A stretch of DNA of 64,000 nucleotides, from the NCBI GenBank assembly GCA_030654175.1, contig JAURXZ010000006.1:186001-250000 (forward strand), in the 5' to 3' direction. The notes under the pieces were generated by a model that ran no database searches, had not been told where the DNA came from, and saw only the letters and a list, made by a program, of their open reading frames with translations. The position numbers and the translations under genes were made by a program. This stretch comes from Bacteroidia bacterium. Its GTDB lineage: Bacteria; Bacteroidota; Bacteroidia; 2-12-FULL-35-15. Of this stretch, positions 1,584 to 62,487 are shown piece by piece; position 1 is the stretch's first letter; the number at the start of each line of letters is the position of its first letter.

Positions 1584-1747
1584 AATAAATGCGGAGCAAG
1601 TGCAAGTTGCAAATGTTTTTTCGCAGCGGTATAAATTAATTTCTAAACATTTGCAAGGTTGGTTTGTGCTTTTAATTTACATTTGCGGTAACGAATAGCA
1701 GAGTGCAAGTAAGTCCGCACTTCTTTTAGGTTCGTTCGTTGTGTGCC
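1566..1747 (+). other. attC-like hairpin 2 (cassette boundary)
   Basis: A 182-bp imperfect palindrome from GCCCATAAC (1566-1574) to GTTGTGTGCC (1738-1747). ACCTAAAA near 1578 pairs with TTTTAGGT near 1725, TGCGGA with TCCGCA, and an inner perfect 12-bp hairpin pairs TTGCAAATGTTT (1607-1618) with AAACATTTGCAA (1645-1656). GCCCATAAC is the exact reverse complement of GTTATGGGC at 913, the left end of the same unit. A -7-like TACATTTG lies at 1678-1685 without a well-spaced -33 element. Confidence 0.72.
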
Positions 1748-1855
1748 ATTGTAAAAAAAAAAAGAACGGACAACCTTTCCGTTCGACAATTATGATTTCT
1801 GTAAATCGAATTTTGAATTTATTATACCGTATCTTTCGACTATTGTTCTTTTCGA
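1738..1855 (+). repeat. cassette leader repeat, copy 1
   Basis: The sequence from GTTGTGTGCCATTG onward recurs at 3238-3360 with the same order of blocks: an A-run, a short hairpin GAACGGA...TCCGTTC, GACAATTAT, then GAATTTTGAATTTATTATA and a TTTCG motif. The copies begin exactly 1,500 bp apart, both at a GTT boundary, so two successive units share the same 5' leader. This suggests duplication, or capture of units from a common pool. Confidence 0.75.
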
Positions 1856-1930
1856 CTACTAATTTTTAAAAAACATTTATTAATTAACACATAGATGTAT
1901 TTAGACCCTGATGTTGCTAACAGAAATTAC

Positions 1931-3022
1931 ATGAAACCTCAGCAGACAATTTTACTGATAATTGTTTTGATGACTTTTGGAAGTTGTAAAAACTTTAATT
2001 CAAAAATAATCGAGGAAAATGCTAACCAAGCGGAGTATTATGGGAACAAAAAAGATACTGCATTAGTTAAACATTCAAAAGAAAAGGTATTTCCCAAAAT
2101 TAGTAATCTATCCGAATACAAAAGGTCTGTATTTATTCCAACATTAGAAAGCAAAATTTCTAATAAAAAAAATGCAGTTTATTGTGTAACACTTTTGTAT
2201 GCTTGGGACGAGATAAGAAAAACTATAACAACACCGTTGCAAATTGAGGATAAATTTTCTGATTTGTCATTGTTAAATAATTCGAAATCTTATATCGGAG
2301 TTCTGGATTCAGAAGATTATGAAGCAAAAGGTGAAGTAATTGGAGATAAAATAATAGCGAAAGCCAGTTTTAAGAAATCATTACCATTTGAAGTTAGACT
2401 CCAGGGTTTTGATAACGAAATAAAAGTAGAAGATAAACTAAAATTTGATAATATAAAAGTTGCATCATTTGGCACTTTTGGTTGTTTTCGTGACATTTCA
2501 AGTATGATTGAAATTCTTTTCTACGAAGACGATAATAATTTTATTCTGAAGTTAATACCAAAAGACAAGCAACATGAGATAGTTTTATTTAAGTCTGAAA
2601 TTAAATTCAACTCAATGACTGAAATTATTGAAGAAATAAGTAAGAAAGTTGAAATTGGAAAAGTTGAAAGCCAAAATAAAAAATTAAGATGGAAATATAG
2701 ATTCGAAGAGATGGATGTCGTAATTATTCCTAAATTCAAATTTAATATAGAAACAAATTACAAGGCACTAGAAGGTCAAAATTTCAAATCAAATGAAAGT
2801 GTATTTTATATTGAAACAGCCTCGCAAAAAACTGCTTTTATTTTAGATGAAAATGGCGCAGATATTGAAAGTGAAGCATTAATGGCTGCTTCCTCTAACA
2901 AACCTAAACCTAAGAAAATGAGATTTGATAAACCATTTTTCTTGATGCTTAAAAAGGCGGACTGTATGAATCCCTATTTTGGACTATGGACGACAAATAC
3001 AGAATTAATGGTAAAAGAATAA
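1931..3022 (+). CDS. hypothetical lipoprotein (cassette gene)
   Basis: I place the start at the ATG at 1931 because the sequence from there (MKPQQTILLIIVLMTFGSC) is a typical lipoprotein signal ending in GSC; an upstream ATG at 1895 would add 12 polar residues in front of it. The mature protein of about 345 residues is soluble, rich in Lys, Ile and Asn, without recognised domains. It is the single gene of the unit between hairpins 2 and 3, and a degenerate GACC-type repeat block follows its stop codon. Function unknown; an envelope location is the only inference. Confidence 0.72.
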   Translation: MKPQQTILLIIVLMTFGSCKNFNSKIIEENANQAEYYGNKKDTALVKHSKEKVFPKISNLSEYKRSVFIPTLESKISNKKNAVYCVTLLYAWDEIRKTITTPLQIEDKFSDLSLLNNSKSYIGVLDSEDYEAKGEVIGDKIIAKASFKKSLPFEVRLQGFDNEIKVEDKLKFDNIKVASFGTFGCFRDISSMIEILFYEDDNNFILKLIPKDKQHEIVLFKSEIKFNSMTEIIEEISKKVEIGKVESQNKKLRWKYRFEEMDVVIIPKFKFNIETNYKALEGQNFKSNESVFYIETASQKTAFILDENGADIESEALMAASSNKPKPKKMRFDKPFFLMLKKADCMNPYFGLWTTNTELMVKE

Positions 3023-3024
3023 TT

Positions 3025-3140
3025 CTTAGAAATATGTTTTACGACCACTGTACATTTTGACCATAGCGTATCTCGACCGTTACGTTTTTAGAAAAAAATA
3101 TTACGACCGCTGCGTGCCACGACCATAGCGTATTTGGACT
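3025..3140 (+). repeat. degenerate GACC repeat block after cassette gene
   Basis: Contains several ACGACC / TTTGACCATAGCGTAT / TCGACCGTTACGTTTTTAGAA segments, recognisably related to the tandem unit at 337-700 (shared GACCATAGCG, TTTCGACCGTTATG and GTTTTTA elements) but more diverged. As at 337-700 it lies between a gene's stop codon and the closing hairpin and reads in the sense of the gene. Confidence 0.55.
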
Positions 3141-3161
3141 TTAACGAAAAGAAAGAACAAC

Positions 3162-3247
3162 GGCACACAACATAAAATATGCAATACCTTTGCCGACACG
3201 CTCAAAAAGGCCAATGCGCGGCATCGCCTATTTGACCGTTGTGTGCC
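3162..3247 (+). other. attC-like hairpin 3 (cassette boundary)
   Basis: An 86-bp palindromic element from GGCACACAAC (3162-3171) to GTTGTGTGCC (3238-3247). The outer 10 bp are perfect inverted repeats, and the interior holds GACACGCTCAAA and GCGCGGCATCG. The opening element is the exact reverse complement of the left end of the same unit (GTTGTGTGCC at 1738). The interior strongly resembles the reverse complement of hairpin C at 58298-58379, including the ACACGCTCAAAG and AATGCGCGGCATCG blocks, which links the two arrays. Confidence 0.72.
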
Positions 3248-3360
3248 ATTGTAAAAAAAGAAAAACGAACGGACAGAAACTTTCCGTTCGACAATTATAA
3301 TTTTTGCAGACTGAATTTTGAATTTATTATAACGTAACTTTCGGCTGTTCCGTTTTTTTA
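3238..3360 (+). repeat. cassette leader repeat, copy 2
   Basis: Second copy of the leader described at 1738-1855, differing by small indels in the A-run and scattered substitutions. I see no convincing gene between here and the hairpin at 3616. Confidence 0.72.
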
Positions 3361-3615
3361 CTATTATCAGGGTTACCTACCCAAAATGGGTGGATAGGCC
3401 TGACAAAATCAGGGGCATAAACAAGTTGGCTGCAAGGCGGACAGAAAATTTCTCCGTAACGACAATTCATCAAAAACTAAAATCATTTTTCTTTCAAAAA
3501 AGTAAACTGGCGGACTTCTTTGCAACCACACATCGACCGCTCAAAAGTTTAAATTTTTACTCCACCGCACATTTTTACGCACCGCTGAAAAAGCGGTACG
3601 ATTTGGCTATCACAC

Positions 3616-3708
3616 ATTGCAGCACATTTGCAGGTTAATTTTATTTATGCGTAGAAAAAATACGCATAAATAAAATTTGCTGAGCACCACCTGCAAAAGA
3701 GCTGCAAT
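3616..3708. repeat. long nested palindrome
   Basis: Three nested arms: ATTGCAGC (3616) with GCTGCAAT (3701-3708), TTTGCAGGT with ACCTGCAAA, and a perfect central stem of 16 bp built on ATTTTATTTATGCGTA with its complement around a GAAAAAA loop. It lies about 35 bp from the truncated transposase remnant. It lacks the GTT/AAC ends of the cassette hairpins, so I treat it as a separate element, perhaps a terminator or a small repeat associated with the insertion sequence. Confidence 0.65.
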
Positions 3709-3743
3709 CCCGACCGCTCACAAATTGGTGTGCTTCGCACGAA

Positions 3744-4013
3744 TTATGCGCTACTCCCTCCGGTGGCAGAACGTAAGCCATTACTAATGTCTCGTAGTGA
3801 TTGGCTTTTTGCAAACTGACAGAAGAGCATGAATACCAAATGAGTCCAGCTATTGAATCCTTTTTGATGCTTATCTGTTTCCTTTTCTTTTACAAGTTTT
3901 GAAAATTTTAATCCGTCTAACTTGGAGATAATTTGAGAAAACAAAGTTGCATCTGTCTTGAGAGAAAATTTTTTTTTGTGCAACTCAAAGATAATTGAGA
4001 TACTTAAATTCAT
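3744..4013 (-). mobile_element. IS4-family transposase, truncated N-terminal remnant
   Basis: About 89 residues. The order FSQIISKLD, F-x-KLV, then the block around HQKGFNSWTHLVFMLFCQFA and SQSLRDISNGL is the N-terminal domain (DUF4372 type) of IS4-like transposases common in Bacteroidota. The DDE catalytic core that should follow is missing; after NGLRSATG the frame runs into unrelated sequence and stops, so only about a fifth of a transposase remains. No terminal inverted repeat pair is visible around it. It is a dead insertion-sequence relic inside the largest cassette unit (3238-7689). Confidence 0.75.
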
Positions 4014-4067
4014 TCTATTATTTTTTAACGTTTAGGACGCTACTGATTGGTCTTATATATTTTCATT

Positions 4068-6905
4068 TTAATTGAGCTCCACAACCTTTTTTATAACTGA
4101 CTTTCCATCAATCATAATTTTAACAAAGTAAATACCAGCCCTATCTCCATTTGCTTTAGCACTGAATTTATATGTATACTCGGCCGCTATTTGATAAGCA
4201 TTTACAAGTGTTTGCACCTTTTGGCCAGTTGTATTATATACTTCGATACGTATGTCGGATGTTTTATTTAACACATAGCTAAGGGTAGTGTTTTCCGAAT
4301 ACGGGTTTGGAGAAATGGAAAAGGTAACTTCATCAGAAAGTCCCTTATTATTTGACCTTGAAGTACTGATTGCCCTTGTTGGTGAACAACTGATGTTCCA
4401 CACTGTCTCAACATGCCATCGAGCATTGGGGTACGATAAATAATCAGGATCGATAATGGTTAACTGTGAGCCTGAAACACCATTTACCAGTGCCCAATTG
4501 CCGGAACCACTGTTATCCCTCCAAAGATAATAAGCGTTTAACTCCGGGATGGGACTAATTTCGCCTTCTATTTGATAATCATTAAAAGTAAAAGTCCCAC
4601 CAGTTTGATTAATAAAAATAGTATTGTGGTATGCACTCATTGGGCTATAATTTCCACATGTATCTCGCACTTGTAATTTATACCGGTATGTACCGCTATT
4701 TGGATTCCCTGAAAATGGGAAATACAAATTTCTTACTGTATCTACTAGTAAACTCAATGAATCCATTGAAACCGCACCAACTCTTTTGTAGGTATTAGAA
4801 AGTGTTTCACGATATACAATAAATGAATCAACATTGGTATAAGATGCCTTGTCCCAATAAATAATATTATTTGTTGATGTGTTATCTACTGTTACCATGC
4901 AAATGGAAGGCGCTGCGGGTATTGGCAAAACCTGTGTTATCTGGCTATCAATATTTGAGCAGTTATTTCCATCAACATAAGTATACGTGATAGGTTGCAT
5001 ACCGCTTCCAGCGATAGAAGGATTGAAGCTATTATTGCTTATTCCAACGCCACTAAATATACCTCCAGCAGGAAATCCTGTTAACGTTTTTATGGAATCA
5101 TTAAAACATAAAACACTATTCAAACCACTGAAACCAACTATTGGTAATGAATTTATTATTGTATTAACAGGCTTAATATCATCGAGGCATCCACCTGAGG
5201 CTGTAAGTTTTATATAATATGTTCCGCTTGTCGCAATGGTATTGGGAGATAACAAAGTATTTGTAGCACTAGTATCCATCCAGTACGATAATAAGCCAAC
5301 ACCAGTGCTTCCGGCTGTTATGGAATTTGCTGTAAGATCAACAGTATTGGGAAAACATACTGAAGCTGGGTCTGAAACATTTAAAACTGGTTGTTGGAAA
5401 ACGACAACATCAGTTCCTGAAGAGATTTGAGAGCAGCCCATTGAAGGCGTTACAGTAACAGAGTAATTTCCTGAACTTGAAACAACAATGCTTTGTGTGG
5501 TTTCATTGTTTGACCATAAGAAACTGCTTCCTGAACTTGCTGTTAAAGTAACATTGCTACCCTGGCAAAATGTTGTTGTTCCACTTGAAGTAATTGTTGA
5601 TGTTAATGCAGCAATTGTAAATGTACTTCCAGTCGAAAGATTTAAAGAGTTAAATGAGCCGGCTGGAGCGGGCTGTTGGGAAGCTAGATAATTACTAAAG
5701 GCAACCTGCCCGACATTAATGTTATCATAATAATCATATATTTTTGAAGCAATAGCAGCAGTATTTGTAGTATCCCACCAATTATTTTTTGCAGTAACTC
5801 CTGAGCTTGACAAATTTTGTAGATTGAATACTGAATTACTAATAAAATTGCAACTATCCATAACTACCGAATTTGCATTCGATATTTTCATTCCAATAGC
5901 ATTTTCAGAAATAGTTGAATTAGTTATAGATACGTAACCTCCAATCTGGTATCCTGAATAGCCTGTTATTTCGAAAGCAATACCAGTGTTATTGCCCATT
6001 TGCTTTACAGATGCAATTGCTCCGTTTCCAAAAATTATTCCGTTTGAAGCAGTATTATTGATTATACTTTTTGAAATGTTAACGGTAGCAGTGGGCAGGT
6101 TAATGGGAACATTGTCTAGTTCGCTATTTGAAATTGAAAGCGGACCACCTACTGGAGTTCCCCATCCTTCGGTTATTTCAGAAGAAATTATTTTTGAATG
6201 ATTGAAAGAAATATTTGCTCCGCAGCAACCAATCAGTAATGATGAATTGGAAACAGTACTACTATCGAAATTAATTCCATAATTATAGGGATCGGAATTA
6301 ATTATGCAATTGTCAATAAAACTGCTTTTTAAAGTTATTGGCTCAGTGCAGGGGTAAACTCCCCATAGTCTACTCCCAATAATGGTTGTTTTGTTAAGAA
6401 TCAAGGAGGCTGAAGTTTGGTAACCATGAGTTATTACATTACTGTTGCTGAATAAAGCATTATAAATAATTAAAATTCCTGAATTTTTTATTGGATCCTC
6501 ATTCTGTTCACTTTCATTTGCAAGCTGAACTGCAGGCTTTGGACCATAAAATTGAAGGTTATTTAAACTGCTATTACTTAAATTAGCCCCTTTAAACATT
6601 AGCATCGGATTATTGCCACCTGAACATCCATTAAAAAAGATAGGTAGTGTATCAATTCCATTAGCAACTATGGCTCCTTGAATTATAATTTGATAATCTC
6701 CATTGTAAGTAATTTTTACACCGGGTTGAATTGTCAATGTAATCCCCAATGGTATTCCAATATCGCCAATTAAATTGTAAGGACTGCCGCTTATATTCCA
6801 GGTGGTGTTTGAAAAGAATGCTCCGCTTACGTCAGTTTGGGCTTTGGAAGTTTGCAATCCAAAGATAATTAAGAGAAATATAAAAATTGAAAATTGTGAT
6901 TTCAT
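4068..6905 (-). CDS. secreted T9SS cargo, beta-helix and Ig-like domains
   Basis: 945 residues from the ATG at 6905; the upstream ATG (6941) would add 12 charged residues before a clear signal peptide (MKSQFSIFIFLLIIFGLQTSKAQ). Residues ~30-400 contain repeated N-x-S-x-I rungs with many Asn and Ser, typical of a right-handed beta-helix. An Ig-like segment follows (TTFCQGSNVTLTASSG...SNYSVTVTPS type, ~450-520), then FSGVGISNNSFNPSIAGSG-type repeats. The last ~85 residues (SISPNPYSENTTLSYVL ... GIYFVKIMIDGKSVIKKVVEL) form a T9SS type A sorting domain, so the protein should be exported to the cell surface or medium. It lies in the unit between 3238 and 7689. Substrate or ligand unknown. Confidence 0.85.
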   Translation of the reverse strand: MKSQFSIFIFLLIIFGLQTSKAQTDVSGAFFSNTTWNISGSPYNLIGDIGIPLGITLTIQPGVKITYNGDYQIIIQGAIVANGIDTLPIFFNGCSGGNNPMLMFKGANLSNSSLNNLQFYGPKPAVQLANESEQNEDPIKNSGILIIYNALFSNSNVITHGYQTSASLILNKTTIIGSRLWGVYPCTEPITLKSSFIDNCIINSDPYNYGINFDSSTVSNSSLLIGCCGANISFNHSKIISSEITEGWGTPVGGPLSISNSELDNVPINLPTATVNISKSIINNTASNGIIFGNGAIASVKQMGNNTGIAFEITGYSGYQIGGYVSITNSTISENAIGMKISNANSVVMDSCNFISNSVFNLQNLSSSGVTAKNNWWDTTNTAAIASKIYDYYDNINVGQVAFSNYLASQQPAPAGSFNSLNLSTGSTFTIAALTSTITSSGTTTFCQGSNVTLTASSGSSFLWSNNETTQSIVVSSSGNYSVTVTPSMGCSQISSGTDVVVFQQPVLNVSDPASVCFPNTVDLTANSITAGSTGVGLLSYWMDTSATNTLLSPNTIATSGTYYIKLTASGGCLDDIKPVNTIINSLPIVGFSGLNSVLCFNDSIKTLTGFPAGGIFSGVGISNNSFNPSIAGSGMQPITYTYVDGNNCSNIDSQITQVLPIPAAPSICMVTVDNTSTNNIIYWDKASYTNVDSFIVYRETLSNTYKRVGAVSMDSLSLLVDTVRNLYFPFSGNPNSGTYRYKLQVRDTCGNYSPMSAYHNTIFINQTGGTFTFNDYQIEGEISPIPELNAYYLWRDNSGSGNWALVNGVSGSQLTIIDPDYLSYPNARWHVETVWNISCSPTRAISTSRSNNKGLSDEVTFSISPNPYSENTTLSYVLNKTSDIRIEVYNTTGQKVQTLVNAYQIAAEYTYKFSAKANGDRAGIYFVKIMIDGKSVIKKVVELN

Positions 6906-6940
6906 ATTCTTGGATTTATTTATTTTATTGACCAATAGCA

Positions 6941-7267
6941 TTATTGCATTTTCACATACTTTTCATTAACTGATTTCGCATGAATCATAATCTTAACAAA
7001 GTATGTACCAGCCCATCTCCATTTGCTTTAGCACTATAATTATATGTGTTCAAAGCGCTGTTTGAGTTGAACTTACAAGTGTTTTATCCTTTTTTTCATC
7101 TTGTTATATCCTTTCATATATGCATCTGAATTTTTATTCAATATATATGTTTTGTTTGTTTCCTCAGTAAGGGTTAGGTGAAATGGTAAGAGCAATTTCA
7201 TCCGAAAGAGCATGTGTACATAGGACATCGCCCCCCCAAAAAAAGTGTAATTATTTTTCAAGTTCAT
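6941..7267 (-). pseudogene. decayed 3' end of a second T9SS gene
   Basis: Translated in shifting minus-strand frames it gives ETNKTYILNKNSD, then TYNYSAKANGD, then AGTYFVKIMIHAKSV, ending in EKYVKMQ and a stop at 6941-6943. These segments align with the sorting domain of the neighbouring gene at 4068-4340 (TTLSYVLNKTSD, TYKFSAKANGD, AGIYFVKIMIDGKSV). At least one frameshift lies between GD and AG. The relic sits just upstream of the intact gene, so an ancestral tandem pair of T9SS genes has lost one member, or the tail was duplicated. Confidence 0.8.
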
Positions 7268-7505
7268 AAATTAAATCACGTTAATAATTTAATTCGTATA
7301 AACAAATATGCCAGATACACATAAGGATATTGGTTTTCAGATTAATTTAATTCGAAAAAAAGGTGATTAAATTGTTTTGATTTTAGAGATGTATGAAATC
7401 CGATTAAAATGTTCTGCCGTATGTGACGAACTGTAGGTAATCGGACTTCTGTATGTGGCGAACTGCTGGGACTATAACATAACGACAAGACAAAAAAGAA
7501 ACAAC
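7268..7505. other. gene-free spacer upstream of hairpin 4
   Basis: No supportable gene. Two imperfect direct copies of a CTGYMGTATGTGRCGAACTG motif occur around 7413-7470, about 37 bp apart, each preceding a related TCGGACTT or CTGGGACT segment. The rest is AT-rich sequence that could carry promoter elements, but none is convincing. Confidence 0.4.
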
Positions 7506-7695
7506 GGCACACAACATTGGCTAAGCGAAATAGCCGTTAATAGCCAGTTTCATCATTTTAGTTAGCAATGAAAATTGGTCGTGGCAAAAACATTTCACAG
7601 CGGAAAAAAAAATATTTTTTATTTTGTTTTTGCCACTGGTAATTGATTAATTTCGTTTACGAAGGCGGCCATGTTCGCCAAGCCTGCCGTTATGC
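7506..7695 (+). other. attC-like hairpin 4 (cassette boundary)
   Basis: A 190-bp imperfect palindrome from GGCACACAAC (7506-7515) to GTTATGC (7689-7695). GGCTAAGCGAA pairs with TTCGCCAAGCC, and an inner stem pairs GTGGCAAAAAC with GTTTTTGCCAC. The opening element is the exact reverse complement of GTTGTGTGCC at 3238, implying that everything from 3238 to here (IS remnant, T9SS gene, pseudogene) forms one unit of about 4.45 kb. The interior is strongly similar to hairpin 1 (GGTCGTGGCAAAAACATTTC and TTTTGCCACT blocks). Confidence 0.7.
7623..7655 (+). promoter_or_regulatory. promoter-like element inside hairpin 4
   Basis: TTTG (7623-7626), a 21-bp spacer and TAATTTCG (7648-7655), one base off the TAnnTTTG consensus, at the same relative place as the promoter in hairpin 1. 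It points at the serine hydrolase gene starting at 7725. Confidence 0.4.
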
Positions 7696-7724
7696 ATAAG
7701 TTTTAAAGACCACCGAATCACATC

Positions 7725-10233: not shown

Positions 10234-10797
10234 TTATACAGTCATAATTTCTTTTTCTTTAATTTCAAGATGTTTATCGCATTTCACAACAAAGCCATCA
10301 GTAAGCTGTTGTACCTTTACTTCGCTCTCTTTTATTTCATCTTCAGGAACATTATTTTTTAGCAATTTTTTTAATTCTTCGTTGGCTTCTTTACGGATAG
10401 TGCGGATGCTCACTTTTGCATTTTCAGCTTCTGATTTTGCTTTTTTTACCAGATCTTTTCTGCGCTCTTCGGTTAAAGCCGGAACTAAAATGCGAATTAA
10501 TACACCATCATTTTGTGGATTTAAGCCAAGGTTAGCGGCCATTATCGCTTTTTCAATTGGAGTTAGCGTTGCTTTTTCCCAAGGTTGAATTACCAATGTC
10601 CGTGCATCTGCTGTATTGATACTTGCAACCTGATTCAATGGTGTTTTAGAACCATAATAATCTACCAATATTGATTCAAGCATAGTTGGACTTGCTTTTC
10701 CTGCACGTACCTTCACTAATTCAGCTTCCAAATGCGAAAGGCATTTCTCCATTTGTTCTTTGGTATCGTCTAATATAAATTGAATGTCTTCGTTCAT
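10234..10797 (-). CDS. frr: ribosome recycling factor
   Basis: 187 residues, the normal length. It splits the post-termination ribosome together with EF-G so that subunits can be reused. The sequence follows the RRF family throughout: an N-terminal helix with EAELVKVRAGKASP, then YYGSKTPLNQVASI, the domain II strand NDGVLIRILVPALTEERRKDLVKKAK, and the long C-terminal helix. The ATG start is the usual family start. It lies 130 bp downstream of pyrH on the same strand, the conserved pyrH-frr pair, and ends before the terminator at 10132-10166. In many bacteria rpsB and tsf precede this pair; here they are about 48 kb away at the other end of the window. Confidence 0.97.
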   Translation of the reverse strand: MNEDIQFILDDTKEQMEKCLSHLEAELVKVRAGKASPTMLESILVDYYGSKTPLNQVASINTADARTLVIQPWEKATLTPIEKAIMAANLGLNPQNDGVLIRILVPALTEERRKDLVKKAKSEAENAKVSIRTIRKEANEELKKLLKNNVPEDEIKESEVKVQQLTDGFVVKCDKHLEIKEKEIMTV

Positions 10798-10927
10798 AAT
10801 CTTTAATTTGATAATTTGATGATTTGAAAATGTGATGATTTTTGCGTCCTTTTTTTAACCAATTTGAAGATGTAAATGTAATTGATTTTCAATTTACAAA
10901 ATCATCAAATTTTTGAATTGTACTTTA

Positions 10928-11635
10928 TTAAAACTCCACCAAGGTACCAACTTTATTACCTTCTATTATTCTTTTTAGATTTCCGGGCTTGTTCATATCA
11001 AAAATAATGATGGGTAATTTATTTTCATTACAAAGTGTAAAGGCTGTCATATCCATTATTTCCAGGCCTTTTTCATATACCTCACTAAAAGTAATGGTCT
11101 CGTATTTTGTGGCGGTTTTATCTTTTTCAGGATCGGCAGTATAAATACCATCAACGCGGGTTCCTTTCAAAATGATATCCGCTTCAATTTCAATGGCACG
11201 TAAGGTTGCTGCTGTATCAGTTGTAAAATAAGGGTTTCCGGTACCGGCACCAAAAATCACCACACGATGTTTTTCAAGATGGCGAACTGCACGTCTGCGA
11301 ATAAAATGCTCACAGATCTGTTCCATTTTAATTGCCGATTGAAGTCTGGTTTCTACCTTAATTGCTTCCAATGCAGATTGTAAAGCCATTGAATTAATAA
11401 CCGTAGCAAGCATTCCCATATAGTCGCCTTGCACACGGTCCATACCGCCTTCAGCAGCTTGTATCCCTCTGAAAATATTTCCACCACCAATTACAACAGC
11501 CACTTGAATTCCCATTTCTGAAATTTCCTTGATCTGTTCGGCATATTCACTTAAACGTTCGTGATCAATACCAAATTGTTTTTTACCCATTAAAGATTCA
11601 CCACTTAATTTTAAAAGAATGCGTTTGTATTTCAT
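10928..11635 (-). CDS. pyrH: UMP kinase
   Basis: 235 residues. Phosphorylates UMP to UDP with ATP in the cytoplasm (pyrimidine nucleotide synthesis). Visible family motifs: KLSGESLMG at the N-terminus, [10 protein letters not shown] (phosphate loop), the [14 protein letters not shown] helix, [27 protein letters not shown], and the C-terminal [16 protein letters not shown]. It is of the hexameric bacterial amino-acid-kinase fold, unrelated to eukaryotic UMP kinase. It precedes frr with a 130-bp gap that contains AT-rich inverted repeats. About 145 bp separate its start from the Lcl-domain gene upstream, enough for its own promoter. Confidence 0.97.
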
Positions 11636-37994: not shown

Positions 37995-38090
37995 TTGGGC
38001 GTTCCCCTTTCTTAAAAAAGAAAGGGGCGGGCTTTCCGCTTCAATCTTTTTGTGAAATACAAAAAGGATTTACGCTGCAATCCCTAACGC
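37995..38090 (+). repeat. dispersed ~95-bp repeat, copy 1
   Basis: Runs GGGCGTTCCCCTTTCTTAAA, GAAAGGGGCGGGCTTTCC, CTTCAATCTTTT, AAAAGGATTTACG, TGCAATCCCTAACGC. The same blocks occur in reverse orientation at 62394-62487. It contains a C4/G4-type hairpin (CCCCTTTCTT ... AAGAAAGGGG) typical of small mobile or REP-like elements. It lies between the DHH gene and ndk. Confidence 0.8.
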
Positions 38091-38192
38091 AGCGAACCAT
38101 GAAATAACTAAATAATTCCCTAAACTTGAGATACTGAGTATATTTTTCTAATTTCGCAGCCTCAAAATAATAATTAATACTTATAAAACAAA

Positions 38193-53649: not shown

Positions 53650-53790
53650 ATTAAAAATATTAAAAAATCCCAGAGAATTAATATTTTTCCAAATCTTTCT
53701 TCCGGAATTTTTACAGTCAATTTGGAAAGCAAAATTGACAAAACTAAAATTTGTATTTATGATTTATTGGGAAACAGTCTTCTGAATAAA
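53650..53790 (+). pseudogene. decayed T9SS C-terminal domain
   Basis: In frame from 53683 the DNA encodes IFPNLSSGIFTVNL, ESKIDKTKICIYDLLGNSLLNK, the hallmark of a T9SS type A sorting domain (compare FPNPSSGIFTVNLKNKTVEAKISVYDVLGNCVLDEVF at 57140). The frame then runs into the 3' end of the FISUMP gene on the other strand, so the tail of a lost plus-strand surface protein has been cut by the junction with that gene. Confidence 0.85.
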
Positions 53791-54450
53791 TTTTGTTGTG
53801 CACCGAACAGAAAAGCCGTACGTCTTATAATCTGTGGTACGGTGCACACGGGCCTCCGAGGAATACATGGCGCGCCCCCATGCATTACCGCCACTCTCGG
53901 TGGCCGACCACCAGAGGCCGTAGACACCAACATTGTAGAACGAGCTTCCGTTGGAGGAGCCTCCGGGAAGAGCCCTAAAACCATTGCTGTTGGAAGCTCC
54001 TTTATCATAAGTACCTCCAACATTCATCCAGCCTGTAGTTGGTCTCAACTTGTTTCCCGCAACATCTTCACCGCCTAAATAGCTTGTCAGTGTTGTCCAT
54101 TCATCATCACTTGGTAAATGCCATCCTGCCGGGCAGGCATTTAGTGCAACTTTCCAGGTATAAAGGTAACCATATACTTTTGCATTATTCTTGTCATTAT
54201 TATAAGCAGTACAGCCTTCTGCTGCTTTATAAGCAAGATTTTCCGCCATCCATATTTGAGTACCTATATTTATTATTTTGTATGTTTTGCCATCTCTTGA
54301 GTCTGTCATTGAGCCGATGGTTTTGGTTTCTGTATAGCTAGCTTCCTCTATTTGAACTTCGGCAGGAGCTGTGGATTTTATCTGCGCTTTACTGCTCATT
54401 GCAATAAACAAAATTGCAATTGCGGTAGTTAATAAAGGTTTGTTTTGCAT
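53764..54450 (-). CDS. FISUMP-domain surface lipoprotein-like protein
   Basis: 228 residues. N-terminal hydrophobic signal (LTTAIAILFIAMSSKAQ). The FISUMP (Fibrobacter succinogenes major paralogous) domain is clear: DGKTYKIINIGTQIWMAENLAYKAAEGCTAYNNDKNNAKVYGYLYTW, ACPAGWHLPSDDEWTTLTSYLGGEDVAGNKLRPTTGW, SNGFRALPGGSSNGSSFYNVGVYGLWWSATESGGNAWGRAMYSSEARVHR, and the usual end YGFSVRC. The last ten residues (TKFIQKTVSQ) are read from the antisense of the T9SS relic. Surface adhesion or fibre binding is only a family-level guess. Confidence 0.85.
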   Translation of the reverse strand: MQNKPLLTTAIAILFIAMSSKAQIKSTAPAEVQIEEASYTETKTIGSMTDSRDGKTYKIINIGTQIWMAENLAYKAAEGCTAYNNDKNNAKVYGYLYTWKVALNACPAGWHLPSDDEWTTLTSYLGGEDVAGNKLRPTTGWMNVGGTYDKGASNSNGFRALPGGSSNGSSFYNVGVYGLWWSATESGGNAWGRAMYSSEARVHRTTDYKTYGFSVRCTTKFIQKTVSQ

Positions 54451-54457
54451 TTTTTAT

Positions 54458-54466
54458 GTTATGGGC
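54458..54466 (+). other. left boundary of second cassette array (half site)
   Basis: GTTATGGGC, exact reverse complement of GCCCATAAC at 55650, opens the first unit of the second array. No pairing hairpin lies to its left; the FISUMP start codon is 8 bp away. In a classical integron the first cassette is preceded by an attI site, which also has no hairpin, but no integrase gene is adjacent, so this could equally be a boundary left after loss of a unit. Confidence 0.55.
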
Positions 54467-54499
54467 TGTTCTTTCTTTTTATTTCTGGTCCTAATACCC

Positions 54500-54670
54500 A
54501 CCAGTCGTTGCACACAGCATTTTTTTTAACTGCGGTCGTGACACCCTACAGTCCTCATACACGCTGGTCGTAAAGTGAAATTCTTAAAACCTTGCGGTCG
54601 TAATACCCTACAGTTGTATATCTTTCTTTTTACTTATTCCGTGATATATTCTCATACTTAACGACCGGTG
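54500..54670 (-). repeat. degenerate GACC repeat block in second array
   Basis: On the minus strand it reads TTACGACCGCAAGGTTTTAA and TACGACCAGCGTGTATGAGG, recognisably related to the tandem repeat at 337-700. It lies downstream of the stop codon of the minus-strand gene at 54691, the same gene-relative position as in the first array. Confidence 0.5.
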
Positions 54671-54690
54671 AATCAATATTTTTAATGATT

Positions 54691-55551
54691 TTAAAGTTCG
54701 TAATTTACCTTTTTCAATTTACCTTCAGAATACCAATATAAATCTCTACTAACTAAATTGGGGGCATTATCATTGAGAATATTGTCTAAAACAACTCTTG
54801 CAAAGTAGGAAACTGAATTAACTTCTGATTCTTCATTTACAGGATAAATTATTACAATATTTTGATTTGGAACTATTATAAAAGCTCCTTTCTTTCCTAA
54901 TAAATCCTTTTTATTTTCCAAATCCAAAATTACATTGGCTTCAAATAAAGTTTCGCCTTCCAATGCGTATGAAACAAACTCTCCTTCCGTAAGTGTTTCA
55001 AAAGTAAAGTTATATTTTTCTGAAATATTTTTCTTTCCCAATTCAAATAATTCTTCAGGTGTTTTATTCCAACTTCCAAGAAATTTCTTATTAACTGAAG
55101 ATATTGTATATGGCAAATCAAAAATTACCATGGCATGAATATGATTACATATTTCTTTGTCAATCTTTTTGGATGCCTCTATTCCTTCAATATATTCATA
55201 AGAGCATATTTTTATGCCGATGTATTTTTTCACCTGCTCAAAATCGTCTTCTATTTTATGAAACTCGCGAGCAAATTCTTCAGCCTTAATTATACTTTCA
55301 AAATGATCGTCTATAGTCTCTTTATAGTTTTGTAAATTACTGTTTTTGCATTGTTTAGCAAGGTTTAAAAGACCAAGATTTCTATCATTACTCAAATGAA
55401 TAACCCCATCCTCCATTTTATATTCTAAAGCAAAGTCATTTAATGTGCTGTGTACTTCGTTAATAAAAATAGTATATTCTTCCTTTGTAAAAAAATTAGC
55501 CCAAGAAGGAACATGGTTTCTGGAATTAAAAAGACGAGTAAAAAAAGTCAT
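54691..55551 (-). CDS. hypothetical protein, possible DUF1444-like (cassette gene)
   Basis: 286 residues without signal peptide. The C-terminal half (KIDKEICNHIHAMVIFDLPYTISSVNKKFLGSWNKTPEELFELGKKNISEKYN ... GEFVSYALEGETLFEANVILDL) has features of the DUF1444/YtpQ family: a central helix-strand core and the W-x-KTPEELF-x-LGKKN motif. The N-terminus is highly charged and helical. Function unknown; cytoplasmic by sequence. It is the only gene of the unit 54458-55692 and reads against the direction of the attC-like sites. Confidence 0.55.
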   Translation of the reverse strand: MTFFTRLFNSRNHVPSWANFFTKEEYTIFINEVHSTLNDFALEYKMEDGVIHLSNDRNLGLLNLAKQCKNSNLQNYKETIDDHFESIIKAEEFAREFHKIEDDFEQVKKYIGIKICSYEYIEGIEASKKIDKEICNHIHAMVIFDLPYTISSVNKKFLGSWNKTPEELFELGKKNISEKYNFTFETLTEGEFVSYALEGETLFEANVILDLENKKDLLGKKGAFIIVPNQNIVIIYPVNEESEVNSVSYFARVVLDNILNDNAPNLVSRDLYWYSEGKLKKVNYEL

Positions 55552-55649
55552 TTGTATAGTTTTAGTTTTTTTAAAGTTGCCTATAACTTGTAAATACTCA
55601 CATTGTCAGTCGGCAAAAGATACTGTTTTTTGTTTTTTTTAATTGTCTT

Positions 55650-55700
55650 GCCCATAACGGCTAAATATGCGCATTTCCGCGCATATTTTTTGTTGGTGGC
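55650..55700 (+). other. attC-like hairpin A (cassette boundary)
   Basis: A compact 51-bp palindrome from GCCCATAAC (55650-55658) to GTTGGTGGC (55692-55700). The stem is AAATATGCGC (55663-55672) with GCGCATATTT (55679-55688) around a six-base loop. The opening element is the exact reverse complement of GTTATGGGC at 54458. The stem is shared with hairpin B at 57396. Confidence 0.75.
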
Positions 55701-55807
55701 TGTGGTTCTTTTGTCCTTCCGTCCAACACAGCTATTAATAATACAGTCTTGGCGAAAAATCAAATGTAGCACAAAATTGTCGATGTAATTTTGACTAAAA
55801 ATTTCAA

Positions 55808-57361
55808 ATGAAGAATTTTTTTCTTTTTTTCTTTTTCATTTTAAACCCAACTGTTTATGCGCAGCAATGGGAGTGGGCAAAACAGATTCCTTGCTCAGTA
55901 AATCTGTCGGGAGTGCAAATACTCACTGACAATGTTGGAAATCTTTATTTCAAGGGGAGCTTAGATGCTAATGGATTATTTGCCGGTTTTAATCTCAACG
56001 AAGGAACTTTTATTGCTAAATTCAATTCTAACGGACAGGTTTTGTGGACTAAAAATATTCAAGGCATCAGTAAAGTCAAGATTGATAGTAAAGGCATTCT
56101 TTACATTACAGGAACTTTTAACGATTCTTTAATTCTAAATCCCTTTAGCGTTTACAGTCATGGTGGAGCAGATATTTATTTCGGCAAAATTAACTCGAGT
56201 GGGCAAATATTACTTCTAAAAACCTTTGGTGGATCAAATGATGATGCAGGAGTCGGATTGGATATAGATAAGGATGATGAAATATATTTAACCGGCATGT
56301 TTCATGACAGCATTGCAATCGGAACAATAAATATTAAAGACACCATTGGGTTTAACAACTTTTACGTAACCTGTCTTGACACTAGTCTGAATACTAAATG
56401 GGTTAGTACCGGAAATTGGAATTATGCGGTTGGGATTGATATTGCTGTTGATAAAAATAAAAACTCTTTTGTTTGGGGGAAATATGCAGATACGACCTAC
56501 ATGTATTCCGGTGGTGATTTTATAAGCAAATTTAATAGTTTAGGAATGAAAACGTATTCGGATGAGTTTTATAGTTATGGAGACTTATATAATATAGAAG
56601 TAAATAATTCCAATGTCTATTTACATGGCTACGGTTGTAATCCGCAATTTTGCACTGCTTTATTGAGAAAATATGACCCATTAATGAATCAGATATGGGC
56701 AAAGTATTTGGGAGATGGATATGATTACTTTTTATCTAACGGGATTCCTTTTGAAAATGGGAACATGATTATTGCGGGAGGGTATGGATATCAGTATGAA
56801 GACTCTGTCCAAATTGATTCTGTCTGGATTCTGAAAAAAAATGGGAAGTATTCAGATTTGTTGGTTGCAAAGGTGGATTCAAATGGAAATTATTTGTGGT
56901 TCATGACTGCTGGCGGAAATGGGGGCGAATGGGCTGAAGAGGTTGCACTTGACAAATTCGGTAATTGCTTTGTCTATGGAAGCATTACAAATTATCAGGG
57001 AATTGCAGATACAGTAATATTTGATTATGACACCCTAATCGGATCCGGAAATCAAAAACAATTTTTTCTTGCAAAGATTAATCAACCACTTATAGAGGTT
57101 ATAACCGCAATAAATGAAATTACTGAACTGTTTTCTGTTTTTCCAAATCCATCTTCTGGAATTTTTACAGTCAATTTGAAAAACAAAACTGTCGAAGCAA
57201 AAATTAGTGTCTATGATGTGTTAGGAAACTGTGTTTTAGATGAAGTATTTGTAAAAAACAATAGCTTGGAAATCAATTTGAGCAATCAGCCAAAAGGTGT
57301 TTATTTTATAGAAATTATGTCTGAAGAGGTTCAAGCAGTAAAGAAAATTGTCTTGCAGTAA
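55808..57361 (+). CDS. T9SS-exported SBBP-type surface protein (cassette gene)
   Basis: 517 residues. Signal peptide (FFLFFFFILNPTVYAQ). Residues ~20-420 show repeated blades with AKFNSNGQVLWTKNIQG, YFGKINSSGQILLLKTFGGSNDDAGVGLDIDKDDEIYLTGMF and YVTCLDTSLNTKWV, the SBBP-type beta-propeller also found in the 45865 adhesin. The last ~85 residues (FSVFPNPSSGIFTVNLKNKTVE ... ISVYDVLGNCVLDEVF ... GVYFIEIMSEEVQAVKKIVLQ) are a T9SS type A sorting domain. A complete surface protein carried by one cassette-like unit is unusual. It is the only plus-strand gene in this array. Confidence 0.85.
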   Translation: MKNFFLFFFFILNPTVYAQQWEWAKQIPCSVNLSGVQILTDNVGNLYFKGSLDANGLFAGFNLNEGTFIAKFNSNGQVLWTKNIQGISKVKIDSKGILYITGTFNDSLILNPFSVYSHGGADIYFGKINSSGQILLLKTFGGSNDDAGVGLDIDKDDEIYLTGMFHDSIAIGTINIKDTIGFNNFYVTCLDTSLNTKWVSTGNWNYAVGIDIAVDKNKNSFVWGKYADTTYMYSGGDFISKFNSLGMKTYSDEFYSYGDLYNIEVNNSNVYLHGYGCNPQFCTALLRKYDPLMNQIWAKYLGDGYDYFLSNGIPFENGNMIIAGGYGYQYEDSVQIDSVWILKKNGKYSDLLVAKVDSNGNYLWFMTAGGNGGEWAEEVALDKFGNCFVYGSITNYQGIADTVIFDYDTLIGSGNQKQFFLAKINQPLIEVITAINEITELFSVFPNPSSGIFTVNLKNKTVEAKISVYDVLGNCVLDEVFVKNNSLEINLSNQPKGVYFIEIMSEEVQAVKKIVLQ

Positions 57362-57395
57362 AGTTTTTAGATGCGAAGTTTTGAAGCCCACCATT

Positions 57396-57448
57396 GCCAC
57401 CAACGGCTAAATATGCGCGTTTTTCAGCGCATATTTTTTGTTGGTGGC
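57396..57448 (+). other. attC-like hairpin B (cassette boundary)
   Basis: 53 bp from GCCACCAAC (57396-57404) to GTTGGTGGC (57440-57448); outer nine bases perfectly inverted, inner stem AAATATGCGC / GCGCATATTT as in hairpin A. The opening element is the exact reverse complement of the left end of its unit (GTTGGTGGC at 55692). It lies 35 bp after the stop codon of the surface gene. Confidence 0.8.
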
Positions 57449-57449
57449 A

Positions 57450-57790
57450 GGTTTTTCTTTTACTAAAGTTTTAACACAACAGTCTAAAAGTCCTTTAAAA
57501 TTTGGTCGTTACACACAATTCGTAAAAACACATTGGTCATATTTTAAAAACATTTTATTTTTAAGTTAACCACAAAGGTCTAAAAGTCCCTTGAACAAAG
57601 GTTGTCACACATAGTTCGTAAAACACAACAATCTTAAAGTGTTTTAAATTGTGGTCGTAACACAAAGTTAACAAAAACATAATGGTCTAAAAGTTCATTA
57701 AGTAAAGGTCTTCAAGCATGGTTCGTAAAAACACAACAGTCTGAAAGTTCTTTAAAAAATAGTCGTGAAACATAGTTCGTGAAAATGTAC
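57450..57790 (-). repeat. tandem repeat block in second array, ~55-60 bp unit
   Basis: At least five degenerate copies marked on the plus strand by AACACAACAGTCTAAAAGTC, CACAAAGGTCTAAAAGTCCC, AACAATCTTAAAGTG, CATAATGGTCTAAAAGTTC and AACAGTCTGAAAGTTC; between them are TTCGTAAAAACACA and GGTCGTAACACA segments. Read on the minus strand the unit has GTTTTTACGAAC, ACGACC and AACTTT-AGAC blocks, the same order as the first-array unit. It lies downstream of the minus-strand gene at 57790. Confidence 0.7.
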
Positions 57791-58176
57791 TAGTCATATT
57801 TTGTAACTGCAATCAAATGTATTCTTTTTATGCTTGAACCGTCTAAATGAAGTCGGACATTTTTAACAAGCTCATTATGTATTGAAAGCAAATCTGATTT
57901 TAATTTTAAATACTCATTTTTAACTAATTGCCTGTCGTGATTTTCATTGACACCAGGCAACCAGAATTCAATCCAATAAAGATCTGCGTTTTTGAAAGTA
58001 AAAAACAAGTCAACAATATATGTTTTTGTCAAAAATGTCAGGGTTGCAGCTTTTAATGAATAAGAGAATTTGTCTTGAAAGTCAAATACAAATTTTGCAT
58101 CTTTAAATAACGCAAAGAATGTTTCTTGGGTAACAGGTGGCTTTAATTCTATGCTATTTATTATTAATTGTGTCAT
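57790..58176 (-). CDS. hypothetical protein (cassette gene)
   Basis: 128 residues, no signal peptide. Pattern: LIINSIELKPPVTQETFFALFKDAKFVFDFQDKFSYSLKAATLTFLTKTYIVDLFFTFKNADLYWIEFWLPGVNENHDRQLVKNEYLKLKSDLLSIHNELVKNVRLHLDGSSIKRIHLIAVTKYD. Mixed alpha/beta with a long C-terminal helix; I recognise no family. It is the only gene of unit 57440-58371 and reads against the attC-like direction. Its stop codon lies at the edge of the repeat block. Confidence 0.6.
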   Translation of the reverse strand: MTQLIINSIELKPPVTQETFFALFKDAKFVFDFQDKFSYSLKAATLTFLTKTYIVDLFFTFKNADLYWIEFWLPGVNENHDRQLVKNEYLKLKSDLLSIHNELVKNVRLHLDGSSIKRIHLIAVTKYD

Positions 58177-58297
58177 TTGTTTGGTGTTAAAATTGCTAAG
58201 TCATAAACCATAGTTCGTAAACTAATAACTGTCTTATTTTAAATATGGTTTTATTTAGAAGTCGAAATATATAGGTTTCGATTCTTGCTCTAAACTT

Positions 58298-58379
58298 GCC
58301 ACCAACGGTCAAATATACGATGCCGCGCATTGGGCTTTGAGCGTGTCAGCAAAGGTATTGTATATTTTATGTTATATGC
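58298..58379 (+). other. attC-like hairpin C (cassette boundary)
   Basis: 82 bp from GCCACCAAC (58298-58306) to GTTATATGC (58371-58379). CAAATATAC pairs with GTATATTTT-like sequence. The interior (ATGCCGCGCATTGGGCTTTGAGCGTGTC) is close to the reverse complement of hairpin 3 at 3162. The opening element is the exact reverse complement of GTTGGTGGC at 57440. Confidence 0.75.
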
Positions 58380-58396
58380 TGTGGTTCTTCAGTCCG

Positions 58397-59140
58397 CTAC
58401 CGTTGCCATCCTTCTATTATATAATTTTTCTCAATTAATTTTCGTTCTTCTCCACCCTTGTCTGGAATAAACCAAAGTTCAAACCTTGCTGCATAAGGTT
58501 TCCCCCAGTCGCCTTCATAAATTGTAAATGGTCTGCCGAAGTCTGAATTTCCTTTGTCCATTTGAAAGCTAACTAAGCTGTCGGTCGAATTGCAAACAGA
58601 TATTGTTGAGTTTTCTTTTAGTCTGTCCACAGAAAGTGGGTCGTTTTGAGTAATTTCAAATGCTTTTAAATAAATTTTTCCTTTGTCAATACGCTTTGTC
58701 CCAAAAGCATACTGATAAAGTCCAGGTTGCAATGAACTGTATATGTAAAAGTCAGTGTCTGCAATATTTGTCGGCTGAGTATATTCAAGCGGCTCATTTA
58801 TTTTCACGTTTGTAGGGATTTTCAAATTGTCAGCATATTTGTCTGGCATTGATTGGTCTTTCCAAAACAAAGCAATTGAGTAAAATAAAAAAGCAACAAT
58901 TGAAATTCCAATGATTATTGTCGTCAAGATTGCAAAACGCCAATGTCTTTTAACCAGTTGAAAAACTGTCGAAATGATAAGTCCTAAAAATCCAAGCAGA
59001 AACAACAAGAAAGAATAGTCTTGCAATTTAGGTTCATTTGTAAATTCACATAATACCATTATTATTGCTGTCAGTCCGAAAAAAAGAACTGGTCGCCACC
59101 ATTTGTCAAAGCAATACGTAAAGAATTTTGTCATTGTCAA
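58397..59140 (-). CDS. membrane-anchored hypothetical protein (cassette gene)
   Basis: 247 residues. Three membrane segments near the N-terminus (about 15-32, 40-60, 68-92: VLFFGLTAIIMVLCEF, FLLFLLGFLGLIISTVFQLV, FAILTTIIIGISIVAFLFYSIALFW), then an extracytoplasmic soluble region with aromatic-rich strands (DTDFYIYSSLQPGLYQYAFGTKRIDKGKIYLKAFEITQNDPLSVDRLKEN). A second Met two codons in (59134) is an alternative start. No family recognised. It is the only gene of unit 58371-59207 and reads against the attC-like direction. Confidence 0.65.
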   Translation of the reverse strand: MTMTKFFTYCFDKWWRPVLFFGLTAIIMVLCEFTNEPKLQDYSFLLFLLGFLGLIISTVFQLVKRHWRFAILTTIIIGISIVAFLFYSIALFWKDQSMPDKYADNLKIPTNVKINEPLEYTQPTNIADTDFYIYSSLQPGLYQYAFGTKRIDKGKIYLKAFEITQNDPLSVDRLKENSTISVCNSTDSLVSFQMDKGNSDFGRPFTIYEGDWGKPYAARFELWFIPDKGGEERKLIEKNYIIEGWQR

Positions 59141-59164
59141 TTAGTTTCTGTGTATCCTACCATA

Positions 59165-59213
59165 GCATATAACACATCAGTAACCGCCATCCCGTAGCGT
59201 TTATTTGTTGTTT
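59165..59213 (+). other. attC-like hairpin D (right end of second array)
   Basis: GCATATAAC (59165-59173) is the exact reverse complement of GTTATATGC at 58371, the left end of the same unit. TAACCGC pairs with GCGTTTA (one mismatch) and GTTGTTT (59207-59213) is the closing GTT element. About 90 bp further right lies the terminator of tsf, so the array abuts the translation operon. Confidence 0.6.
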
Positions 59214-59343: not shown

Positions 59344-60180
59344 TTAGCTTAATGCTATTCGTTTGAAGTTTGTTACTGTCAAACCTTTTTCAGAATCGTT
59401 CAGATACTGAGCAATTGTTTTTTTGCTGTCTTTGATAAATTCCTGGTTAAGTAAAGTAGATTCTTTGTAGAATTTATTTAATTTACCTAAAGCAATTTTT
59501 TCCAACATATCTTCCGGTTTACCTTCTTCGCGAGCTTGTTCTTTTCCAATTTCAATTTCACGTTTAATGGTATCGGCATCAACATCACCTTTATCAACAG
59601 CTACAGGAGCCATTGCTGCAACTTGCATAGCAACATCTTTTGCTACTTCAGCAGAAACAGTTGGAGAACTAAATCCTACAATGTTTGCTAATCTGTTTCC
59701 CGGGTGGTTGTATGCAATAACAAAAGGAGCTTCTACAACACCAAATTTAGTTAATTCAATTTTTTCACCAATAACACCTGTTTGCTCAATTAATTTATCA
59801 GCAATAGTAATGTTATTATCATAAGCTAATGCTTTTACTTCATCAGCAGATGTTGCATTTTTTGCAATAGCAATATCTAAAATGTTATTTGCAAGTGTAA
59901 TAAAGGCTTCATTTTTTGCAACAAAGTCAGTTTCGCAGTTTACACCTAAAACAACACCACGTTTGTTATCAGCAGTAGTTTTAGCAACTATCAAACCTTC
60001 TTTAGAGTCACGATCGCTGCGGTTAGCAGCTACTTTTTGTCCTTTTTTACGCAATTCATCAATTGCTTTTTCAAAATCACCTTCTGCTTCAGTTAATGCT
60101 TTTTTGCAATCCATCATACCGGCACCAGTCATTTGTCTTAACTTGTTTATTTCTGCGGCTGTTATCGTCATTGTTGACAT
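59344..60180 (-). CDS. tsf: elongation factor Ts
   Basis: 278 residues. Exchanges GDP for GTP on EF-Tu. The N-terminal UBA-like domain (TITAAEINKLRQMTGAGMMDCKKALTEAEGDFEKAIDELRKKGQKVAANRSDRDSKEG) and the core motif TDFVAKNEAFITLANN are typical, and the dimerisation and C-terminal regions follow. It overlaps the end of an AT-rich gap after rpsB and is the last gene of the ribosomal operon. In many Bacteroidota pyrH and frr come next; here an accessory array does. Confidence 0.97.
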   Translation of the reverse strand: MSTMTITAAEINKLRQMTGAGMMDCKKALTEAEGDFEKAIDELRKKGQKVAANRSDRDSKEGLIVAKTTADNKRGVVLGVNCETDFVAKNEAFITLANNILDIAIAKNATSADEVKALAYDNNITIADKLIEQTGVIGEKIELTKFGVVEAPFVIAYNHPGNRLANIVGFSSPTVSAEVAKDVAMQVAAMAPVAVDKGDVDADTIKREIEIGKEQAREEGKPEDMLEKIALGKLNKFYKESTLLNQEFIKDSKKTIAQYLNDSEKGLTVTNFKRIALS

Positions 60181-62078: not shown

Positions 62079-62393
62079 TGTATTTAGTATTAATTTATAT
62101 TCTTAAATTTCCAAAATTATTTAATTCGGGACGCGAAGATAGGTAGATTTTTTATTCCCGACAAACTAATTTACAAATAATTGTTGAAAACTATATTTTA
62201 AACCTGTTTTGATCGTATTTTCCTTAAAAAGAAGAAATTGGGAGAATTTGGAAGTCGAAATACTCAATTCTGTCAACATTACCCCTGCTTTACGTTGCAA
62301 GTCCGCGCTCCACGCAAAAAAGCCAACCTTTGGCGTGCTTTCCACTACAATCAGGCTTAATTTATCAAAAGTATCGTTTCTTAAGGGATACTA

Positions 62394-62487
62394 TGCGTTA
62401 GGGATTGCAACGTAAATCCTTTTCTGTTTAGAAAAGATTGAAGTGGAAAGCCCGCCCCTTTCTTCTTTAAGAAAGGGGAACGCCCAA
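62394..62487 (-). repeat. dispersed ~95-bp repeat, copy 2
   Basis: Reverse-complement copy of 37995-38090 (GCGTTAGGGATTGCAACGTA, AAATCCTTTTCTG, AAGCCCGCCCCTTTCTTCTT, AAGAAAGGGGAACGCCC). It lies in the 567-bp gap between rplM and hemA. No gene is visible in this gap. Confidence 0.8.

Follow-up and report, generated by a model that had tools for sequence, protein, structure and literature searches.

The stretch analysed here, referred to as the window, comprises 64,000 nucleotides of a Bacteroidia bacterium (assembly GCA_030654175.1, contig JAURXZ010000006.1, positions 186,001 to 250,000). It contains two gene-cassette arrays. Array 1 lies at the left end, whereas array 2, the subject of this report, occupies positions 54458–59207 directly behind the terminator of tsf. 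An earlier note had described array 2 as a cassette-like array of four units with complementary ends, and this description is supported by our analysis. The features of array 2 are as follows.

59165–59207, minus: attI-like element opening array 2; TAAACGC..GCGGTTA as inverted repeat in front of CG-N11-GTT, R' = GTTATATGC; geometry common to other starts and to sites beside the recombinase in relatives
58371–59173, minus: cassette 1, GTTATATGC..GCATATAAC; gene 58397–59134, 245 aa, membrane protein-like, function unassigned, toward its own attC
58298–58379, minus: attC of cassette 1, 83-nt family; 47.7 bits with model R1, 81.2 bits with model R2
57440–58306, minus: cassette 2, GTTGGTGGC..GCCACCAAC; gene 57790–58176, 128 aa, toward its own attC
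57396–57448, minus: attC of cassette 2, short family; R1 63.2 bits on minus, 28.4 on plus
55692–57404, minus: cassette 3; gene 55808–57361 on plus, 517 aa, with a type IX secretion system (T9SS) C-terminal sorting domain
55650–55700, minus: attC of cassette 3, short family; R1 63.3 bits on minus, 24.3 on plus
54458–55658, minus: cassette 4, GTTATGGGC (minus, 55658–55650)..GCCCATAAC (minus, 54466–54458); gene 54691–55551, 286 aa, toward the attC end

Unit ends, attC sites and orientation

Read directly in the window, all four units end in exact 9-bp complements: GTTATGGGC (54458–54466) with GCCCATAAC (55650–55658), GTTGGTGGC (55692–55700) with GCCACCAAC (57396–57404), GTTGGTGGC (57440–57448) with GCCACCAAC (58298–58306), and GTTATATGC (58371–58379) with GCATATAAC (59165–59173). 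The R' and R'' arms of one cassette would pair when the cassette is closed into a circle, which would explain the complementary unit ends. To put this rule on a statistical footing we used 100 attC-like sites from fetched loci of six genomes of the genus (G000, the window genome, as well as G001, G008, G018, G021 and G025). Pairs were scored over the 6 positions beyond the invariant GTT/AAC, which themselves served to read the sites. A 6/6 match was observed for 41 of 59 successive site pairs, compared with 2.4% expected under random pairing, which agrees with the judgement of the earlier note that a chance origin is very unlikely. The two arms of one and the same hairpin matched fully in only 10 of 88 cases. 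Several of the non-matching pairs resulted from the wrong GTT being picked in GTTCGTT. The sites of G025 have no exact partners and look decayed. The cassettes with an exact 9-nt partner (n = 64) have a median length of ~770 bp.

A covariance model (R1), built from six seed hairpins of both arrays, detected attC-type sites in both of them with scores of 47.7–63.3 bits; a search of this kind had been suggested in the earlier note. For the first two sites of array 2 the minus strand gave 63.3 and 63.2 bits, compared with 24.3 and 28.4 bits on plus; the third scored 47.7 bits on minus and was not detected on plus. Since the 83-nt site of array 1 scored 53.1 bits on plus, the arrays point in opposite directions, contrary to the same orientation assumed for them before. 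The resemblance of hairpin C to the reverse complement of hairpin 3, correctly noticed at that time, is itself evidence of this opposite arrangement. The left-right rule is uninformative on direction, because the right arm of one site pairs with the left arm of the next either way.

In attC sites, unequal unpaired spacers separate the R and L boxes. These boxes and the extrahelical bases have been described (PMC12901181). Here the direction is set by gene direction together with the asymmetric spacers, of 3 nt beside AAC and 4 nt beside GTT. In the direction of the model the sites consist of R'' (NNNNNNAAC), a 3-nt spacer (AAA, ATA, ATT, ACC), L'', a loop and L', followed by a 4-nt spacer ending in CC (AGCC, GACC, TGCC) and R' (GTTNNNNNN). 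Their lengths define families of about 50, 83, 100 and 180 nt. With the attC sites placed on the minus strand, three of the four genes of array 2 read classically, toward attC, the gene of cassette 3 being the sole one reading against it. The reverse count given in the earlier note, and with it the gene direction considered uncommon there, vanishes. In the cassettes with an exact partner, 52 open reading frames of at least 80 aa point toward their own attC and 3 against it. Both reversed cassette genes of the window genome (55808–57361 and 4068–6941) encode a T9SS sorting tail.

The gene product of cassette 2 (128 aa) gave no Pfam match, and no Rfam match was obtained at array 2. Two Flavo-1 RNAs (Rfam RF01705) are located elsewhere in the window (38021–38098, minus; 62389–62461, plus). 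Tandem repeats of ~54–63 bp occupy non-coding 3' parts of cassettes (367–698 and, with ~54 bp in cassette 2, 57571–57785). Similar repeats were found near attC in cassettes of other genomes (loci L109, L107, L125 and L108).

Array starts and a Xer-like recombinase in relatives

The first R' arm of an array is preceded by a conserved element, an inverted repeat followed by CG, 11 nt and GTT, and by no attC. The segment 59165–59207, counted as a fourth hairpin in the earlier note, is such an attI-like start with an exact unit partner, and not an attC. Three types of start are present in the window genome. Alpha-class starts comprise about 90 bp of conserved sequence; the start of array 1, located 9 kb left of the window (C19:176954), is of this type and is nearly letter-identical in contigs C31 and C27. 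Four copies of the beta core pattern are present in the window genome, all of them at array starts, and none in a reversed control. CG was found at positions −13/−12 in 18 of 19 sites, a count that is no formal test, as the sites are relatives of one another and the CG motif had itself led to some of them.

The gene next after tsf is pyrH, with no array, in 22 of 28 relatives. In G008, whose Tsf is 98% identical, an attI-like element and another gene occupy the spot next to tsf. Whereas tsf and pyrH-frr are neighbours in most relatives, they are 47.7 kb apart here (window 10234–11635 and 59344–60180). Array 2 sits at the tsf side of this split and the end of array 1 adjoins frr.

For the enzyme we searched the genus of the window genome, whose 36 genomes here make up the entire order, and 395 genomes of the class. 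A classical IntI was observed in none of the 36, with TIGR02249 below its cut-off throughout. The class-wide search yielded one classical IntI (L106, G173:C40), which served as positive control; no R1-type sites were found within 12 kb around it. Recombinase loci were reached instead through a search for the alpha palindrome. Five genomes (G001, G018, G023, G031 and G034) encode a tyrosine recombinase, 547 or 546 aa long in its complete copies, and behind each gene comes a palindromic attI-like site in the same direction. Cassettes that obey the end rule come after this layout in at least three of them: a cassette GTTACGCGC..GCGCGTAAC with a 180-nt attC in G001, several cassettes in G034 and one in G023. 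The attI types that head the arrays of the window genome are the types located beside the recombinase in these relatives. G031 and G034 share one identical sequence across the recombinase end and attI as far as GTTAT and differ from there on. Breakpoints away from GTT had been named in the earlier note as grounds for refuting its reading; the outcome favours that reading, since homologous cassettes and attI sites were found to part exactly at the G of GTT (locus L169, the pair G031/G034 and the Chryseobacterium pair described below).

The catalytic half of the recombinase is Xer/IntI-like, with 219 bits for NF040815 (cut-off 220) and 219 bits for TIGR02249 (cut-off 265). N-terminal repeats are present as well. 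According to an alignment the clade lacks the IntI insert, which is present in the control IntI. By sequence the closest solved structure is the integron integrase 2a3v. In a tree the clade and IntI are separated from the host XerC/XerD proteins with a support of 100/99. Host XerC/XerD had been considered as the cassette enzyme, since G025 (98% complete) has little else, and was dropped, because the sites of G025 lack exact partners and another recombinase was found beside attI.

Related units were also found on plasmids beyond the genus. The recombinases on plasmids of Chryseobacterium sp. SNU WT5 and C. oryzae are 95% identical and share the same attI, and the two sequences split exactly at GTT into different cassettes. 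On a Chryseobacterium plasmid (L217, 6120–6290) a gene-less unit of ~40 bp with 14-bp complementary ends adjoins attI and recurs later in the array. On a plasmid of Rufibacter tibetensis the recombinase is followed by six co-directional cassettes with attC sites of the same spacer type, and the ends of the same unit match at a mean of 7.2 of 8 positions compared with 3.9 for other pairings. A plasmid of Parabacteroides distasonis carries the recombinase together with SMI1/KNR4-type and Tdi1-type immunity genes, in the layout described for recombinase-associated acquired interbacterial defence (rAID) clusters (PMC12247911). The end rule holds in 5/5 units, with ATT replacing GTT; other pairings also score fairly high there (mean 5.7, maximum 8), which makes this the weaker case. 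On Acinetobacter plasmids a 5'-truncated recombinase, ~70% identical to the enzyme of the genus, lies beside tet(X3) (for instance L214, 6052–8260, A. indicus). An attI-like ACGCCATTTGGCGTATAGCCACTT|GTT (CG-N11-GTT) is located between the two genes, and an attC-like GCTACTAAC.. follows tet(X3). This arrangement suggests that tet(X3) arrived as a cassette. The right attC has been broken by later insertions. Between R' and the R'' that is left there is no match, and a cassette origin of tet(X3) is therefore a suggestion.

Array 1, which faces opposite to array 2, comprises the following features within the window.

735–921, plus: attC, long family L2
913–1574, plus: cassette GTTATGGGC..GCCCATAAC
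1566–1747, plus: attC, long family L1, present about 35 times in G001
1738–3171, plus: cassette; gene 1895–3022, 375 aa, weak serpin similarity
3163–3246, plus: attC, 83-nt family; R1 53.1 bits on plus
3238–7515, plus: cassette containing the reversed T9SS gene 4068–6941
7507–7697, plus: attC, long family L2

The first 8 kb of array 1, from its attI-like start up to the first attC recognised (L029, 6954–15397, left of the window), hold a defence-like set: one helix-turn-helix gene, a pair of Eco57I-type restriction/methylase genes and a gene for an AAA_13 protein. Two long arrays are present in G001; one of them carries about 20 near-identical 180-nt attC sites within 22 kb, similar to a chromosomal integron. 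In the same genome (L171, 3622–7121, G001:C84) two different cassettes are each present as near-identical tandem copies. Such duplications were rejected as proof of the cassette boundaries, as one is ambiguous owing to the likeness of the attC copies. A genome-wide scan with exact patterns gave only seven matches, the site family being too diverse, and no attC-like DNA of the 83-nt and long families was found in the phages, plasmids and viral contigs searched.

Proposed mechanism and alternatives

Based on these data we consider it quite probable that array 2 is an integron-type array of four minus-strand cassettes, assembled at the attI-like site after tsf by a Xer-like recombinase. The array-building enzyme would most likely be a Xer-like tyrosine recombinase of the IntI-sister clade without the IntI insert, rather than a classical IntI. 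The bounds of a cassette would be the TT of an R' arm (GTT..) on one side and, on the other, the G that follows its own attC. The recombinase would take the attC of a circular cassette, folded from a single strand, and join it to attI between G and TT; new cassettes would be added next to attI. We infer that this clade catalyzes attI × attC recombination and acts on folded single strands, and that it served the window genome, be it in trans, with a later loss, or from an unbinned replicon. For the window genome itself, loss of the recombinase, an unbinned replicon and action of a 359-aa relative of the enzyme are all possible.

A number of observations weigh against this mechanism. The assembly of the window genome contains no gene of the 547-aa type, and the 359-aa relative (39% identity) is encoded far off with no attI beside it. 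Related recombinases are also carried by genomes without arrays. The tree fixes the split from XerC/XerD and not how IntI and the recombinase clade branch with respect to each other. Array 2 has one arm only at its end at 54458, with no recognisable attC hairpin (12.4 bits), and seems truncated against the gene at 53764–54450. The strict arm consensus is rarely found (GTTRRRY in 12/92 and RYYYAAC in 14/95 arms). Folding energy had to be rejected as a strand criterion, as the hairpins fold about equally on both strands (single-stranded fold of the cassette 2 attC: z about −7 on either). In one tandem duplication of G001 the shared attC equals the upstream copy, which homologous recombination between attC copies would also explain.

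Among the alternatives, the one to which we give most weight assumes a visiting integrase which put cassettes into secondary, attG-like chromosomal sites instead of a true attI. Such a scenario would suit the finding that a single genome has at least nine array starts, all of them remote from an integrase, and cassette insertion at attG has been described (Loot et al. 2024, in the account given by PMC12901181). The starts, however, are conserved (over about 90 bp in the alpha class) and have the layout seen beside the recombinase in relatives, whereas attG sites are described as divergent. We regard this explanation as rather unlikely.

Lower still we place the possibility that array 2 is a cluster of attC sites lacking integron-integrase (CALIN), the remains of an ordinary integron, either decayed or supplied in trans, with its classical IntI lost or residing on an unbinned plasmid and with the Xer-like recombinase as a bystander. 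No recombinase is located beside the window arrays, the last attC of array 2 is missing, the G025 sites look decayed, and CALINs are common in metagenome-assembled genomes (PMC9668308). Against such an origin, which we consider improbable, stand the lack of a classical IntI throughout the order (36 genomes), the single one among 395 in the class without R1-type sites around it, the five genomes with the recombinase followed by attI of the type heading the arrays, and the recombinase-attI-array units on plasmids of isolates. Chance inverted repeats, terminators or repetitive extragenic palindromic (REP)-like repeats between ordinary genes have a negligible probability: some sites do look like strong hairpins near gene ends, but the hairpins differ from site to site, the matching runs across units and not within a hairpin, duplications and swaps occur at the level of cassettes, and the pairing statistics already refute this explanation.

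Relation to known integrons

Integrons capture genes and are familiar as spreaders of antibiotic resistance. The array would work like an integron. It has attC sites between cassettes, complementary R'/R'' arms, co-oriented genes and a crossover between G and TT. An attI beside an integrase gene is present in the five relatives and on plasmids, whereas the window genome has attI-like starts without an adjoining recombinase. By its attC sites, cassettes and attI-like start the array is a member of the integrons; by the possession of IntI it is not.

With the sedentary chromosomal integron of Vibrio cholerae (IntIA and the Vibrio cholerae repeats, VCR) the system shares an attI-type site with tandem cassettes, repeated species-specific attC sites (the L1 family of G001), the order R''-L''-L'-R' with an unpaired spacer, co-oriented genes, the G|TT crossover and R'/R'' complementarity within one cassette. 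It differs in an integrase without the IntI insert and with N-terminal repeats, whose gene reads toward attI, in arrays at many loci of one genome, and in R arms mostly outside GTTRRRY. As in a CALIN, the window arrays contain two or more attC sites and no intI in the element; unlike in a CALIN, each array is headed by a conserved attI-like site and the type of integrase is visible in relatives. rAID-1 of gut Bacteroidales likewise combines a tyrosine recombinase, co-oriented short genes and conserved intergenic motifs (PMC12247911). It carries immunity genes, however, and the Parabacteroides example has ATT at the crossover where GTT is found here; in array 2 we found neither a recombinase nor known immunity domains. 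The unit of the xerD-like gene by tet(X3) on Acinetobacter plasmids resembles ours in its related recombinase, the attI-like CG-N11-GTT, the gene and the attC-like start, and differs in the truncation of the recombinase, the broken right attC and the R'/R'' mismatch. The catalytic domain is of the XerA/XerC/XerD type (NF040815 close to the cut-off), whereas the additional N-terminal domains, the attI-attC context and the separation from the host XerC/XerD clade distinguish the enzyme from these proteins.

Bacteroidota have been reported to be nearly free of integrons, with complete integrons rare in Bacteroidetes (PMC9024848), and the IntI insert has been described as essential (PMC8138268). 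We lean towards the view that the arrays represent a second integron lineage, widespread among Bacteroidota, with an IntI-sister, Xer-like integrase lacking the insert and a co-directional attI; the same lineage would also have built the rAID clusters and brought tet(X3), as a cassette, to Acinetobacter plasmids. The comparison with published integrons covers open-access papers, and the original rAID paper may already draw a parallel between rAID and integrons. The recombinases score below the cut-off of the integron-integrase model, and searches based on IntI would therefore tend to miss such arrays. The role of the xerD-like gene next to tet(X) (PMC7473080) and the biogenesis of rAID clusters with their gain of genes (PMC12247911) were both stated to be unexplained, and our reading offers a concrete mechanism for these two puzzles. 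If it is true, an integrase handles attC without the IntI insert, which would change ideas on the recognition of folded attC sites.

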